Origin: Lachnospiraceae bacterium
GTDB lineage: Bacteria; Bacillota; Clostridia; Lachnospirales; Lachnospiraceae
DNA length: 32,843 bases
Reading direction: 5' to 3'
Assembly: GCA_016280465.1 (NCBI GenBank)
Contig: JAEEGT010000118.1
Span: 1-32,843 of the forward strand
Below are positions 4,697 through 12,994 of this stretch, piece by piece. Made by a program: the position numbers and the translations under genes. Numbering within the stretch: the stretch's first letter is position 1; every line of letters starts with the position of its first letter. Below the pieces are notes generated by a model, which saw only the letters and a program-made list of their open reading frames with translations, was not told the DNA's origin and searched no databases.

Positions 4697-5851
4697 ATGT
4701 CAAATTCATTTATAATGCCAAAACAGATTGTTAGCGGCAGTGATGCCCTGAATCAGGCAAAGTCCCTTTTCAATAAACTTGGCAGAAAAGCCCTTGTGGT
4801 GACCGATGAATCCATGATAAAGCTTGGTAATCTGTCCCATGTGGAATCTGCACTCAAAGACTGCGGTCTTGAATATGCGGTCTTTTCGGGGATCACCGGA
4901 GAGCCCACCGACAAGATGATCGAGGAAGGCCTTAAGGTCTATAAGAGCGAAAACTGCGATTTTCTTATTGCTCTTGGCGGCGGAAGCCCCATAGATTCCA
5001 TGAAGGCTATCGGTGCAATTGTGGGTAACGGCGGAAAGATCACCGATTATCTCGGCAAAGTCATTGAGAAAGAAACACCTCCCATGGTGGCTGTTCCCAC
5101 CACAGCCGGCACCGGTTCCGAGGCAACACAGTTTACCATCATCACGGATACTGAGCGGGACATCAAGATGCTTTTAAAGGGTGCCGTTCTTATGCCCGAT
5201 CTTGCAGTAATAGATCCGAGATTCACCCTTACGGCACCTAAGAAGATCACCGCTTCCACGGGACTTGATGCCCTGTGCCATGCAAGCGAGGCCTTCACAT
5301 CCAGAAAGGCACAGCCCCTGTCCGATGTGTTTGCGGTTTCCGCGGTTAAGAGAATTTTCAAGTATCTTCCAATTGCATATACAGACGGAAGTAACGTGAA
5401 AGCCAGAGAGGAGATGTCCCTTGCGGCTTTGGAAGCGGGTATTGCTTTTAACAACTCTTCCGTAACCATAATTCACGGTATGAGCCGTCCCATCGGCGCA
5501 CTGTTCCATGTGCCCCACGGTGTGAGCAATGCCATGCTTATTGAAAAGTGTTTCGGCTATGTGCTTGACGGAGCCTATGACAGATTCGGCCGCCTGGGTC
5601 GTGAGATCGGCGTAGCAACGGAATCTGATTCAGATGAGGATGCGGCTAAGAAGTTCTTAAAAGCCACCGTGGATCTTGTAAAGCTTTGCGAGATCCCCTC
5701 AATTGAAGGCTACGGAATAGACAAAGAAAAATTCAAGTCTGTCATCGACAAGATGAGCGAGGATGCGGTATTCAGCGGAAGCCCTGCCAATACCGCCAAG
5801 GAAATAGGTATCGAAGACGTTAAGAAGATCTACTTAAGTCTTTGCGAATAG
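4697..5851 (+). CDS. Iron-containing alcohol dehydrogenase
   Basis: GGGSPIDSMKAIGAI, PTTAGTGSEATQFTII, GLDALCHASEAF, HGMSRPIGALFHVPHGVSNA. Start at ATG 4697 behind AGGAGG. Confidence 0.92.
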   Translation: MSNSFIMPKQIVSGSDALNQAKSLFNKLGRKALVVTDESMIKLGNLSHVESALKDCGLEYAVFSGITGEPTDKMIEEGLKVYKSENCDFLIALGGGSPIDSMKAIGAIVGNGGKITDYLGKVIEKETPPMVAVPTTAGTGSEATQFTIITDTERDIKMLLKGAVLMPDLAVIDPRFTLTAPKKITASTGLDALCHASEAFTSRKAQPLSDVFAVSAVKRIFKYLPIAYTDGSNVKAREEMSLAALEAGIAFNNSSVTIIHGMSRPIGALFHVPHGVSNAMLIEKCFGYVLDGAYDRFGRLGREIGVATESDSDEDAAKKFLKATVDLVKLCEIPSIEGYGIDKEKFKSVIDKMSEDAVFSGSPANTAKEIGIEDVKKIYLSLCE

Positions 5852-6718: not shown

Positions 6719-7735
6719 ATGGAATACGTTAAATTTGACAGCAAAAGACCCATGGATCTGGTACTTCTGGGGCGTATCGCGGTGGATTTCAATCCCGTGG
6801 ACTATTTTAAGCCCCTTGAAGAGTGCACCACCTTCAAAAAATACCTGGGAGGATCCCCTGCCAACATAGCGGTGGGAATTTCCCGTCACGGCATGAAGGC
6901 CGGTTTCTTTGCAAGGGTTTCCGACGATCAGCTGGGGGACTTTGTAACTCATTATTTTGAAAAAGAAGGGGTAGATACGTCAAGGATCCGTCGCTGCCAG
7001 CACGGAGAGAAGATAGGACTTACCTTTACGGAGATCCTTTCACCAAATGAATCTTCCATCCTTATGTACAGAAACTGCATCGCCGATCTTCAGCTTTGCG
7101 TTGACGATATCGATGAGGAATATATAAAGAACAGCAAGGCACTCCTTATTTCCGGCACAAGTCTTGCCGCAAGTCCCTCGAGAGAGGCTGCCATCAAGGC
7201 CTGCATGCTGGCACGAAGGACCGACACACCAATAATCTTTGATATCGACTATCGGTCCTACACCTGGAAGAACGAGGATGAGATCTCCATCTACTATTCC
7301 ATGGTGGCAGGATTTGCCGACATAATCATGGGTTCAAGGGAAGAGTTCGATCTGACCCAGAAACTCATCAAACCCGGCATGAATGACGAAGAGACCGCGG
7401 CTTACTGGTTTAAGAAAAATGCAAAGATCGTGGTCATCAAGCACGGCAAGGAAGGCTCCACCGCCCACACCTGTGACGGCGGAAAGTTTTCCATCAAGCC
7501 TTTCCCTGTGGACTGCTTAAAGAGTTTCGGAGGCGGAGACGGCTACGCATCCGGCTTCCTCTACGGCCTCTTTAACGGCTGGGAGATCATCGACTGTCTG
7601 GAATTCGGCAGTGCCGAAGCTTCCATGATGGTTGCCAGCCACTCCTGCTCCGACGACCTGCCCAATGCTGATGCGGTTCGCAAGTTCATAGCAGATGAGA
7701 AAGCAAAATACGGTGAGATGATTGCAAGAGGATAA
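6719..7735 (+). CDS. iolC: 5-dehydro-2-deoxygluconokinase (PfkB family)
   Basis: LLGRIAVDFNP, YLGGSPANIAVGISRHG, FDIDYRSYTWKN, FGGGDGYASGFLYGL. Confidence 0.9.
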   Translation: MEYVKFDSKRPMDLVLLGRIAVDFNPVDYFKPLEECTTFKKYLGGSPANIAVGISRHGMKAGFFARVSDDQLGDFVTHYFEKEGVDTSRIRRCQHGEKIGLTFTEILSPNESSILMYRNCIADLQLCVDDIDEEYIKNSKALLISGTSLAASPSREAAIKACMLARRTDTPIIFDIDYRSYTWKNEDEISIYYSMVAGFADIIMGSREEFDLTQKLIKPGMNDEETAAYWFKKNAKIVVIKHGKEGSTAHTCDGGKFSIKPFPVDCLKSFGGGDGYASGFLYGLFNGWEIIDCLEFGSAEASMMVASHSCSDDLPNADAVRKFIADEKAKYGEMIARG

Positions 7736-7947
7736 TACCTTGAGCGAACGCAAACATCGAAAAGTTACTCGCGAACCGGCTCCACTACGCTCGACTAATC
7801 GCTAACTCCGGCTATGTGTCATGGCACGTTCGCCTATGGGGCCTCTCGCGCCAGACACCAAGCCTGCGTAAGCGCTGGATTCTCGCTTCGGTTCCCGCCT
7901 AACTTTCGCTCATAATCTTTTCGAGTTTGCCGTTCGATGATGGTATT
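7734..7947. repeat. Intergenic structured repeat, copy 1 (iolC-iolD gap)
   Basis: 7767-7902 matches 12024-12159 at 134/136 (7776-7902 identical). Flanked by imperfect complementary arms 7745-7764/7917-7936 and 7734-7739/7942-7947. Confidence 0.9.
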
Positions 7948-7976: not shown

Positions 7977-9902
7977 TTGAAAACAATAAGAATGACAACC
8001 GCTCAGGCGTTGGTAAAGTTTTTGGACGCTCAGTACGTGGAGCGTGACGGCGTTGAGACCAAATTCGTGGAGGGCGTGTTTACCATCTTCGGCCATGGCA
8101 TCGTGCTTGGCCTCGGTCAGGCTCTCGATGAAAATCCCGGAAGCCTTAAGGTATTCCAGGGCCGTAATGAGCAGGGCATGGCCCACGTGGCAGCAGCCTT
8201 TGCCAAGCAGAATAACAGGAAAAAGATCATCGCATGTTCTTCTTCCATAGGCCCCGGTGCCGCAAATATGGTCACAGCCGCTGCCTGCGCAACGGTGAAT
8301 AACGTACCCCTTCTTATGCTTCCTGGTGACACCTATGCAACGAGACAGCCCGACCCCGTGCTTCAGCAGGTGGAGCAGCCCACGAGCCTCGGCACCACTA
8401 CCAACGATGCTTTCAGGGCCGTTACCAAATACTTTGACCGTATCGTGCGCCCGGAACAATTGATGAACGCCATGATCAATGCCATGCGTGTTCTCACGGA
8501 CCCTGCGGAAACAGGCGCTGTATGCATCGCTCTCAGCCAGGACGTTGAAGGCGAAGCCTACGATTATCCCGAATATTTCTTTGAAAAACGTGTCCACAGG
8601 ATAGTCCGCACCGTTCCTTCCGAGGCGGAACTTTCCGATGCGGTTGAGATCATAAAGAAAGCAAAGAAACCCCTTGTGATTTGCGGAGGCGGCGTGCGCT
8701 ACTCCGAAGCCGGCGATGTTCTCATGAAATTCTGCCGCGAGTTCAATATCCCCTATGCGGAGACTCAGGCCGGAAAGAGCGCCACAAAATCTTCCTGCGA
8801 ATATAATCTGGGCGGTATCGGTGTTACCGGTAACAGTGCCGCCAATACAATAGCAAGAAAGGCCGATGTGGTCATAGCCGTGGGCTCCCGCCTTACGGAC
8901 TTTACCACCGGCTCCAAGTCCCAGTACTCGGACAAAGCAAAATTTGTAAACATTAACGTTTCCCGCTTCCATGCTTACAAGATGGATGCACTGAGCGTGG
9001 TGGGCGATGCCAAGGAAACCCTTAAGCGCCTGGCTTCAAAACTCAGAACCTCAGGATATAAGAGTTCCTATACCACCGAGATAGAAAAAGCAAGAACGGA
9101 CTGGGCCAAAGAAATGAAGCGCCTGGCGAACTACTCCTACGGCAAGGGCTTTAAGACCCTTATCCCCGCTCAGAACCCGGGCTCCGTGGAGGAATTTGTT
9201 AAGCTCTACGGCACGGAAGTTACTCAGGTTGCGGCTATCTGCGCCATCCGTGAGAATATCCCCAAGGATGCGGTAATTACCGGCGCTTCCGGTTCTCTTC
9301 CAGGAGACCTTCAGCGCATGTGGACCACGGACACTAAGGACGCATACCACATGGAGTACGGTTATTCCTGCATGGGTTACGAGGTTTCTTCTGCCCTTGG
9401 CTGCAAACTGGCGGACCCTTCCAAAGAAGTGTACGCAATGCTTGGAGACGGAAGCTTCCTGATGCTTCACAGCGAACTCATTACCTCCCTTCAGGAAGGA
9501 AAGAAGATCAATGTGCTTCTTTTTGATAACTGCGGATTCGGATGCATCAATAATCTGCAGATGTCAAACGGAGTGGGAAATCTTGCGACGGAATTCAGAT
9601 ACCGCGATGAAAAGGGCGGTCTGAACGGAAGCCTGATCCCCATCGATTATGCCAAGGTGGCTGCGGGCTACGGCTGCAAGACCTATACCGTTCACACCAT
9701 AGAGGAACTTAAAAAAGCTCTTCGAGGAGCACGTCGCAGCAAGGTTTCGACCCTCATCGACATCAAGGCCCTTCCCAAGACCATGACCGACGGCTACGAT
9801 TCCTGGTGGAATGTGGGTGCTGCCGAAGTTACCTCCAAACCCGCCGGCCGCGAAGCCTACGAGCGAGTGATCGACAACCGTAAGAAAGCAAGACAATACT
9901 AA
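7977..9902 (+). CDS. iolD: 3D-(3,5/4)-trihydroxycyclohexane-1,2-dione acylhydrolase (ThDP-dependent)
   Basis: [33 protein letters not shown], ThDP-binding [39 protein letters not shown]. Confidence 0.95.
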
Positions 9903-10907: not shown

Positions 10908-10976
10908 GAAAGTCAATTAAGTCCGTAACGGGCCTGACAGGGCGCCGCGGCGGTGAACATTATAAGGAGAAAAAAT

Positions 10977-11990
10977 ATGGTAACATTCGGCGTAATCGGT
11001 GCAGGACGCATCGGTAAAGTACACACAGAAAGCATTTGCCTTCACGTTAAAGGCGCAAAGATTAAAACTCTTGCAGATCCCTTCATGAGCGATGAGGTTG
11101 CTGCATGGGCCAAGGACCTTGGAGTTGAGAACACCACCAAGGATTATCACGAGATTCTTAACGATCCCGAGATTGATGCTGTAATGATCTGTTCTTCCAC
11201 CAACACTCATTCCCCCATCTCCATCGAAGCCATCAAAGCGGGAAAGCACGTGTTCTGTGAAAAGCCCATCGACCATGATCTTGCCAAGATCAAAGAGGTG
11301 GTTGAAGCTTTAAAGGGCACCAAGATCAAATATCAGGTAGGCTTCAACAGAAGATTCGACCACAACTTCGAGGCAGTTCGCAATGCGGTTGCTTCCGGCA
11401 AAATCGGCGAGCCCCACATCATCAAGATCACATCCCGCGATCCCGAGCCTCCGTCAGCAGAGTATGCTGCAGTTTCCGGCGGTATGTTCCTTGACATGAC
11501 CATTCACGATTTTGATATGGTACGGTACCTTGCAGGCTGTGATGCGGAAGAGATCTATGTTCAGTCCGCAGTCCTTGTGGATCCCGCCATCGGACAGGCA
11601 GGGGACGTTGATACCGCACTTATTACCCTTAAGATGGCTAACGGAGCCCTTGCAATGATCGACAACTCCCGTAAGGCAGTTTACGGCTACGATCAGAGGG
11701 CCGAAGTATTCGGTTCCAAGGGCATGGTACAGACTGCCAACGATACCGAATCTACCATGGTATTCAGCGGAGATCAGGGTATCGTAGCAGAGAAGCCCCT
11801 TTACTTCTTCCTTGAAAGATACATGGAGTCCTTCTCAAGAGAAGTCCGTCTCTTTGTCAAAGCCATCGAGGAAGACACCGACACTCCTCTCGGAGTTATG
11901 GACGGCTTAAAGCCTGTTCTTATGGGCATCGCAGCCAAGAAGTCCGTGGAAGAGCACAGACCTGTAAAACTTTCTGAGATTCAGTTTTAA
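10977..11990 (+). CDS. iolG: Inositol 2-dehydrogenase (Gfo/Idh/MocA family)
   Basis: GVIGAGRIGKVH, HVFCEKPID, GFNRRFDHNF, GGMFLDMTIHDFDMVRYL. Confidence 0.93.
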   Translation: MVTFGVIGAGRIGKVHTESICLHVKGAKIKTLADPFMSDEVAAWAKDLGVENTTKDYHEILNDPEIDAVMICSSTNTHSPISIEAIKAGKHVFCEKPIDHDLAKIKEVVEALKGTKIKYQVGFNRRFDHNFEAVRNAVASGKIGEPHIIKITSRDPEPPSAEYAAVSGGMFLDMTIHDFDMVRYLAGCDAEEIYVQSAVLVDPAIGQAGDVDTALITLKMANGALAMIDNSRKAVYGYDQRAEVFGSKGMVQTANDTESTMVFSGDQGIVAEKPLYFFLERYMESFSREVRLFVKAIEEDTDTPLGVMDGLKPVLMGIAAKKSVEEHRPVKLSEIQF

Positions 11991-12209
11991 GATCATAATA
12001 CGCGATTGTAAACTCGACAATTCACTCGCAACCCGGCTCCACTACGCTCGACTAATCGCTAACTCCGGCTATGTGTCATGGCACGTTCGCCTATGGGGCC
12101 TCTCGCGCCAGACACCAAGCCTGCGTAAGCGCTGGATTCTCGCTTCGGTTCCCGCCTAATTGTTGCTCGTTGAATTTCGAGCTTTACCAATCGCTTGTAT
12201 ATTCTAAAA
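11988..12209. repeat. Intergenic structured repeat, copy 2 (iolG-iolB gap)
   Basis: Core 12024-12159 matches copy 1. Arms 12002-12017 and 12177-12194 pair with two single-nt bulges; inner stem 12017-12022/12158-12163. Confidence 0.88.
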
Positions 12210-12223
12210 CTATAGGAGCATAT

Positions 12224-12994
12224 ATGTTCACAGAATTTGTATATCCCGAGTTCGACGCGTCGGGTAAGAAGCAGCTTTGTACATACGGTGCCGAGAATGA
12301 CATGATGATGGACATTGCCGTGTATCGCATGAAGAAAGGTGATACAAAAACATTCCTTTCAAACACCGAGGAAACCGCGGTGCTGGTGGTTCTCGGTAAG
12401 GTTTCTTTTGAATGGAACGGAGAGAAGAAAGAAGGCTTCAGACACGATTTCATCAATGAAGGCCCTTATTGCCTCCATGCCTGCAAGGGCGTTGAAATAA
12501 AGATTGTGGCTTTGGAAGATTCCGAAGTGCTGGTGCAGAAAACAGATAACGAGCGCGATTTCACTCCCGTATTCTACACTCCCGAAACCTGCACCAACGA
12601 TACCTTCGGTAAGGGCCTGTGCGAGGACCGCATGGAGCGCACCGTTCGCACCATCTTTGATTACAGCAACGCACCTTACTCCAACATGGTTAACGGTGAA
12701 GTTATAAATCATCAGGGCAGCTGGTCAAGCTACACGCCTCACAGCCATCCCCAGCCTGAAGTGTATTATTACCGCTATGAGCGCCCCGAAGGCTTCGGAG
12801 CCTGCTTTATAGGTGAAAGTGCCTTCAAGATCGCTGACGGAAGCGCAGCCCACATCACACCCGGCAAGAATCACCCCCAGTGCACCGCACCGGGCTTTCC
12901 CATGTACTATTGCTGGATGATCCGCCATCTTCCCGGCAACCCTTGGACCACCAGAGACGATGATCCCAGATATCTCTGGATCAAAGAATTATAG
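12224..12994 (+). CDS. iolB: 5-deoxy-glucuronate isomerase
   Basis: SSYTPHSHPQPEVYYYRYERPEGFGACF, TPGKNHPQCTAPGFPMYYCWMIRHLPG. Start ATG 12224 (TAGGAG upstream) rather than the ATG inside the repeat. Confidence 0.93.
   Translation: MFTEFVYPEFDASGKKQLCTYGAENDMMMDIAVYRMKKGDTKTFLSNTEETAVLVVLGKVSFEWNGEKKEGFRHDFINEGPYCLHACKGVEIKIVALEDSEVLVQKTDNERDFTPVFYTPETCTNDTFGKGLCEDRMERTVRTIFDYSNAPYSNMVNGEVINHQGSWSSYTPHSHPQPEVYYYRYERPEGFGACFIGESAFKIADGSAAHITPGKNHPQCTAPGFPMYYCWMIRHLPGNPWTTRDDDPRYLWIKEL

Follow-up and report, generated by a model that had tools for sequence, protein, structure and literature searches.

A dispersed hairpin repeat family of Lachnospiraceae with locus-bound arms and exchanged cores

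The repeats of the CGTC-tagged REP super-family are 20–40 bp long with stems of 8–9 bp, have been reported mainly from Proteobacteria, and carry an unpaired CGTC at one end and a CCA tail at the other (Di Nocera 2013, PMC3733652). The bcr1-bcr18 repeats of Bacillus cereus are intergenic, structured and non-coding sequences of 100–400 bp, found in tens of copies and variably present; they are often part of operon mRNAs, and their mobility has been linked to TTTAT motifs (PMC6542083, PMC3446304). The window analyzed here, a stretch of 32,843 nucleotides from Lachnospiraceae bacterium, contains in its iol operon two copies of a large hairpin, copy 1 and copy 2, which are members of a dispersed, intergenic, non-coding repeat family of Lachnospiraceae. 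The family is apparently undescribed: no Rfam entry matched the element at gathering score, with relaxed thresholds giving chance-level matches only, and the open-access literature searched held no description, which does not prove the absence of one.

Copy 1 is preceded directly by a gene for a PfkB-family kinase in the iolC position (6719–7735, plus strand) and followed by one for a TPP enzyme in the iolD position (7977–9902, plus strand). Its left arm (7735–7775) starts from the iolC stop codon and comprises the outer helix AATACC, the variable arm CGAACGCAAACATCGAAAAG and the inner helix GCGAA (7771–7775); next come a core of 127 nt (7776–7902, minus strand; R-strand model; R2, 79.3 bits) and the right arm (7903–7945), which includes the inner helix TTCGC (7905–7909), the variable arm CTTTTCGAGTTTGCCGTTCG and the outer helix GGTATT. 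Copy 2 is located between the genes for a GFO/IDH/MocA oxidoreductase (iolG-like; 10953–11990, plus strand), on its 5′ side, and for a KduI/IolB family protein (12224–12994, plus strand), on its 3′ side. The left arm (11997–12032) contains ATAC, GCGATTGTAAACTCGA and the inner helix GCAAC (12028–12032), the core occupies 12033–12159 (minus strand; R2, 78.4 bits), and the right arm (12160–12203) contains the inner helix GTTGC (12162–12166), TCGAGCTTTACCAATCGC and GTAT. The exact identity of the two copies covers 127 nt, 7776–7902 being the same as 12033–12159, and the identity of the flanking arms is only 27/43 and 29/49 (about 60%). According to the minus-strand model, the shared core forms a rod, built up from short helices and conserved internal loops. 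No TTTAT motif was seen at the ends of either copy.

The sequence-only reading had proposed that the diverged arms still pair within each copy, and all the strings it quoted for the two copies are present at their positions. Its proposal is borne out by the duplex energies: the arms of copy 1 pair with −24/−25 kcal/mol, where shuffled arms average −11.7 and the best of 2000 gives −27.5, those of copy 2 pair with −26/−30 kcal/mol, where the shuffled average is −10.3 and the best of 2000 gives −24.8, and arms swapped between the copies pair far more weakly (−13 and −16 kcal/mol). Taken alone, the energy of copy 1 lies inside its shuffle extreme, a few shuffles being equal, and that of copy 2 lies past it, with 0 of 2000 on the better strand. 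The inner stem suggested in the same reading, AAAGTT/AACTTT in copy 1 and ACAATT/AATTGT in copy 2, uses the same strand as the outer stem, so that it is a competing structure, and neither version was found in the other family copies inspected. The helix that recurs throughout the family is GCAAAC/GTTTGC, represented by GCGAA/TTCGC in copy 1 and by GCAAC/GTTGC in copy 2, with the differences compensated.

A search of the genome of origin revealed diverged copies besides the two of the window. The covariance model R1, built from the core in the R orientation (corresponding to the window's minus strand), detected seven copies in this genome; it detected 10–11 and seven in two congeners and none in the 15 other congeners, so that 3 of 18 genomes of the genus carry the element. 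In a relative, G143, one near-complete chromosome bears 33 copies. Of 397 Lachnospiraceae genomes sampled, 32 carry the family, representing 30 of 334 genera; many of the genomes were assembled from metagenomes and are moderately complete, and the E-values of the covariance model are rough. A pattern scan of named genomes gave at least 120 stretches, which share the motif of the scan by construction; the matches listed are titled Lachnospiraceae, its genera, or unresolved Clostridia/Eubacteriales, and include at least about twenty stretches of Blautia schinkii DSM 10518. Outside Lachnospiraceae, there was no match in an order-wide draw of 295 genomes, whose non-family share is not stated; the IMG/VR viral contigs gave 0 pattern matches, and plasmid and phage records gave no blastn match with copy 2 as query.

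The element is about 200–300 nt long and forms a single long rod. On the R strand, it is composed, from the outside inwards, of an outer helix (e.g., ATAC/GTAT), an internal loop, the arm duplex, the GCAAAC/GTTTGC helix and the core; the arms are usually bounded by a conserved internal loop, with (A/C)CA at the left end and GTCC at the right start, most borders reading CA|G...C|GTCC. The arm duplexes are near-perfect, about 18–130 bp long and mostly copy-specific in sequence. In 92 copies the arm score was at least 15, the shuffled maximum being 10, which places the pairing of the arms in the family past any doubt; these duplexes have a median of 32 pairs and up to 127, with 3422 Watson-Crick, 66 G-U, 37 A-C and 99 other pairs. 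Arms are related between copies in the congener G015, B. schinkii and JAUNHC, and mostly unrelated in G143, G067 and others. Recognizably related paralogous arms occur at L051, L206 and L215. Neighboring copies no more than 1.2 kb apart are oriented head to head on the R strand in 18 of 18 cases.

In homologues, the core shows covariation well beyond that of both controls, shuffled and slid. In 112 copies (110 distinct sequences) 93.1% of the cells are paired, versus 70.9% with partners shuffled and at most 39% with partners slid; there are 761 both-side changes versus 218 in the shuffled control, and the covariation score is 0.408 versus 0.121. The alignment was fitted to a model obtained from eight of its own copies, hence these counts lean towards that structure, while the analysis of the arms is independent of this model. 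The internal loops of the core are also conserved, as in the case of TTACG.AGACT opposite AGTCG.AGTTA.

Some copies display additional features. In B. schinkii, the apical stem of the elements at L072:5840–5995 and L074 (minus strand, about 5122–5240) encloses another hairpin element, distinct from the first and with a conserved core of its own, CGGCTGAATGAGTCGATGCGGTGG.ATCGGCGATTGAAG; it belongs to a second family with the same architecture, and its arms of about 30 bp in L072 are unlike those of L074. In the genome of origin, a long palindromic repeat of yet another, third kind, with outer arms ATGCAAATTAAA.../...TTTAATTTGCAT, adjoins an element copy at L003:1314–1460. At L049:1368–1750, in G067, the arms are about 130 nt long, 97% complementary, and do not occur elsewhere in that genome. 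The palindrome around one copy at L119:320–610 extends into the final codons of an ABC transporter gene, and an inverted copy of about 15 nt of this coding end lies beside a convergent gene. An origin of the arms as inverted copies of the host flanks was considered for L119 and L067; the resemblance is suggestive at the outer ends alone and is not general. No arms copied from elsewhere in the genome were found, the 129-nt arm of L049 having no second match in its genome.

The comparison of orthologous loci of G143 and G434, two genomes of one genus, different from that of the window, with flanking DNA about 90% identical, revealed a different behavior of arms and cores. At L265/L211, L269/L040 and L271/L286, there is hardly any change in the arms and the core is of a different subfamily, with an identity of 0.64–0.71 to the ortholog versus 0.89–0.96 to the core at another locus; L266/L289 has the same appearance. 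When the two copies of L268 (a and b) are included, core identities to the ortholog at L265, L269, L271 and L268 a/b are 0.64, 0.71, 0.65, 0.74 and 0.83, and those to the best paralog are 0.89–0.99. Cores have been exchanged also at L268/L045, where one arm pair differs and seems to have been replaced whole (L268a), which suggests that entire copies, arms included, can also be replaced; L267 and L272 have kept their cores. In L045, 5′ of the first copy, G143 retains a remnant resembling the ancestral left arm (compare L268 of G434), which immediately borders the current arm on its outer side; it looks as though the former copy had been displaced in situ by a new one. The arms thus belong to the locus, and the cores are exchanged between loci, most of them swapped for another subfamily. 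For this reason, copies 1 and 2 need not be recent sisters with paired mutations in their arms. The pattern of an identical core between co-varying arms, which had been taken as a sign of selection on base-pairing, is present; its cause is a different one, the core identity most likely being due to core homogenization, which adds no evidence for selection on the arms. On the simplest reading, carried over from another genus, the two copies would consist of a recently homogenized core on two older sets of arms.

In the congener G015, which carries the element elsewhere and whose iolC protein is 88% identical to that of the window, iolC and iolD are separated by about 16 nt, versus about 240 nt with copy 1 in the window, where the insertion abuts the iolC stop codon directly. 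The comparison shows that a given site may be occupied by the element or empty, and from this single relative we infer a gain, rather than a loss, at the iolC site. No clear target-site duplication was recognized, the iolC empty site included. A RAYT (Y1) transposase was considered as a partner and rejected, as it does not co-occur with the element: PF01797 is absent from the element-bearing genomes G098, G101 and G150 (98–100% complete), and also from G000, G012, G015 and G208. No other mobilizing enzyme was found, nor any autonomous form of the element, as would be shown by an ORF inside the loop or in the stretch separating paired copies, and the replication-strand distribution in G143 (12 versus 21) is not significantly biased.

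Selection on base-pairing, as advanced in the sequence-only reading, fits well with the strong covariation in homologues, and a folded strand under selection is well supported, RNA and single-stranded DNA, and either strand, being compatible with the data. It is possible, although rather unlikely, that the complementarity of the arms derives mainly from a mutational process at DNA hairpins, i.e., template switching and palindrome correction, with little selection on folding. Wobble pairs in the arms are indeed very few (66 of about 3620), and where paralogous arms differ in a pair, the change is in many cases compensated in full, transversions too, a result partly inflated by chance cross-genome alignments; moreover, L217 of G143, in the region orthologous to L272:1080–1250, has collapsed to a short palindrome made of half a core and its inverted copy, likely a trace of template switching, and in L266/L289 the two arms have changed in length by 1 nt in concert. 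These three observations on wobble pairs, L217 and L266/L289 suggest that template switching contributes. However, orthologous arms include both compensated and uncompensated changes, and in G143/G434 as well as in G000/G012 many single changes are uncompensated, therefore correction is not immediate; also, the internal loops are conserved and mismatches persist, rather than being corrected to perfect palindromes. The changes in the arms are those expected from slow drift under a pairing constraint. An explanation that we consider unlikely is that of a structured RNA, either trans-acting or part of a UTR (an ncRNA, or a determinant of mRNA stability or processing), whose copies are kept for that function. 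The strong covariation, the conserved internal loops of the GNA/GNA type, the location of hairpins near stop codons within operons and the excess of G-U over A-C on the R strand (core, 277 versus 38; arms, 66 versus 37) speak for it; most of the G-U excess of the core, however, comes from a few near-fixed positions, and the opposite-strand covariance model scores equally well or slightly better (4897 versus 4841 bits on 92 held-out copies, p = 0.007), contradicting the G-U argument for the R strand. The presence of the element is patchy, in 3 of 18 congeners, and copies between co-directional genes show no preferred orientation (31 versus 30, on a crude ORF call), which speaks against a fixed UTR function; with unrelated neighboring genes around the copies, whose contexts were derived from ORF length only, this leaves a fixed regulatory function within the iol mRNA unsupported. 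A reading as intrinsic terminators was rejected, none being predicted at copy 1 or copy 2, and the R-strand arm is usually followed by GTCC and not by a T run. Within the mRNA that contains it, a copy may nevertheless function as a strong hairpin and, if the iol copies have any role, it would probably be that of strong intergenic mRNA hairpins altering segmental stability.

The exchange of cores bears also on what moves. The core alone could be the mobile part, hopping into the middle of resident hairpins, with the arms representing old host hairpins; at no fewer than three orthologous loci the core was replaced while the arms stayed unchanged, which agrees with this, as do the locus-unique arms, including the unmatched one of L049. 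We regard it as very improbable: the conserved ACA/GTCC loop outside the arms is part of the element, some paralogous arms are recognizably related, and gene conversion accounts for the same data. Scarcely less improbable is the related view of complementary arms proper to each locus and a shared folded core moved by a dedicated process, through a folded single-stranded DNA or an RNA copy. The reading that we favor, and hold to be quite probable, is that of a dispersed hairpin repeat with locus-bound arms and an exchanged core of about 100 nt, spread like a non-autonomous REP/BIME- or bcr-type repeat. The earlier suggestion of a mobile element recognized by its folded ends fits well with the covariation, the dispersed and patchy distribution and the empty site in a relative. 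In the mechanism envisaged, the folded single strand would be recognized by a putative trans-acting enzyme; cores would be homogenized by recombination (gene conversion) via their conserved ends, while the arms, too diverged for conversion, would drift with pairing maintained.

These findings add a large, apparently undescribed family of structured repeats to the genomes of common gut and rumen bacteria. The family also offers a natural system in which, with arms and core of one molecule evolving separately, selection on base pairs can be told apart from palindrome correction, and it calls for caution, since an identical core with covarying arms between paralogs can stem from core exchange. 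Dedicated core hopping, if true, would represent a form of concerted evolution or mobility undescribed for REP-like repeats.

In comparison with the known systems, the family resembles REP/BIME sequences in being intergenic, high-copy and palindromic, with variable stems and no dedicated transposase known (PMC3733652), and in its head-to-head pairing, neighbors within 1.2 kb being here always in the same order; the GTCC and (C/A)CA borders may recall the CGTC tag and the CCA tail of REPs. Unlike CGTC-REPs, however, the tag is situated on the 3′ side of the hairpin when CCA is on the 5′ side, an order apparently reversed with respect to the published description, and the elements of 200–300 nt, with a conserved covarying core and arms of about 18–130 bp, were seen in Lachnospiraceae only. 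Unlike GTAG-REPs and REPtrons, they showed no linked or co-occurring RAYT transposase in several carrier genomes. Like MITEs, they are short, non-coding, patchy and foldable, but sequence-conserved terminal inverted repeats were not seen, the inverted arms differing between copies. With the bcr repeats they share size class, intergenic location, tens of copies, structure, absence of coding capacity and variable presence; they differ in the bacterial family and in the combination of locus-fixed arms and exchanging cores, which did not appear in the descriptions consulted. While size and stems fall outside the definition of CGTC-REPs, the nearest known kinds are the REP/BIME and the bcr-type repeats.
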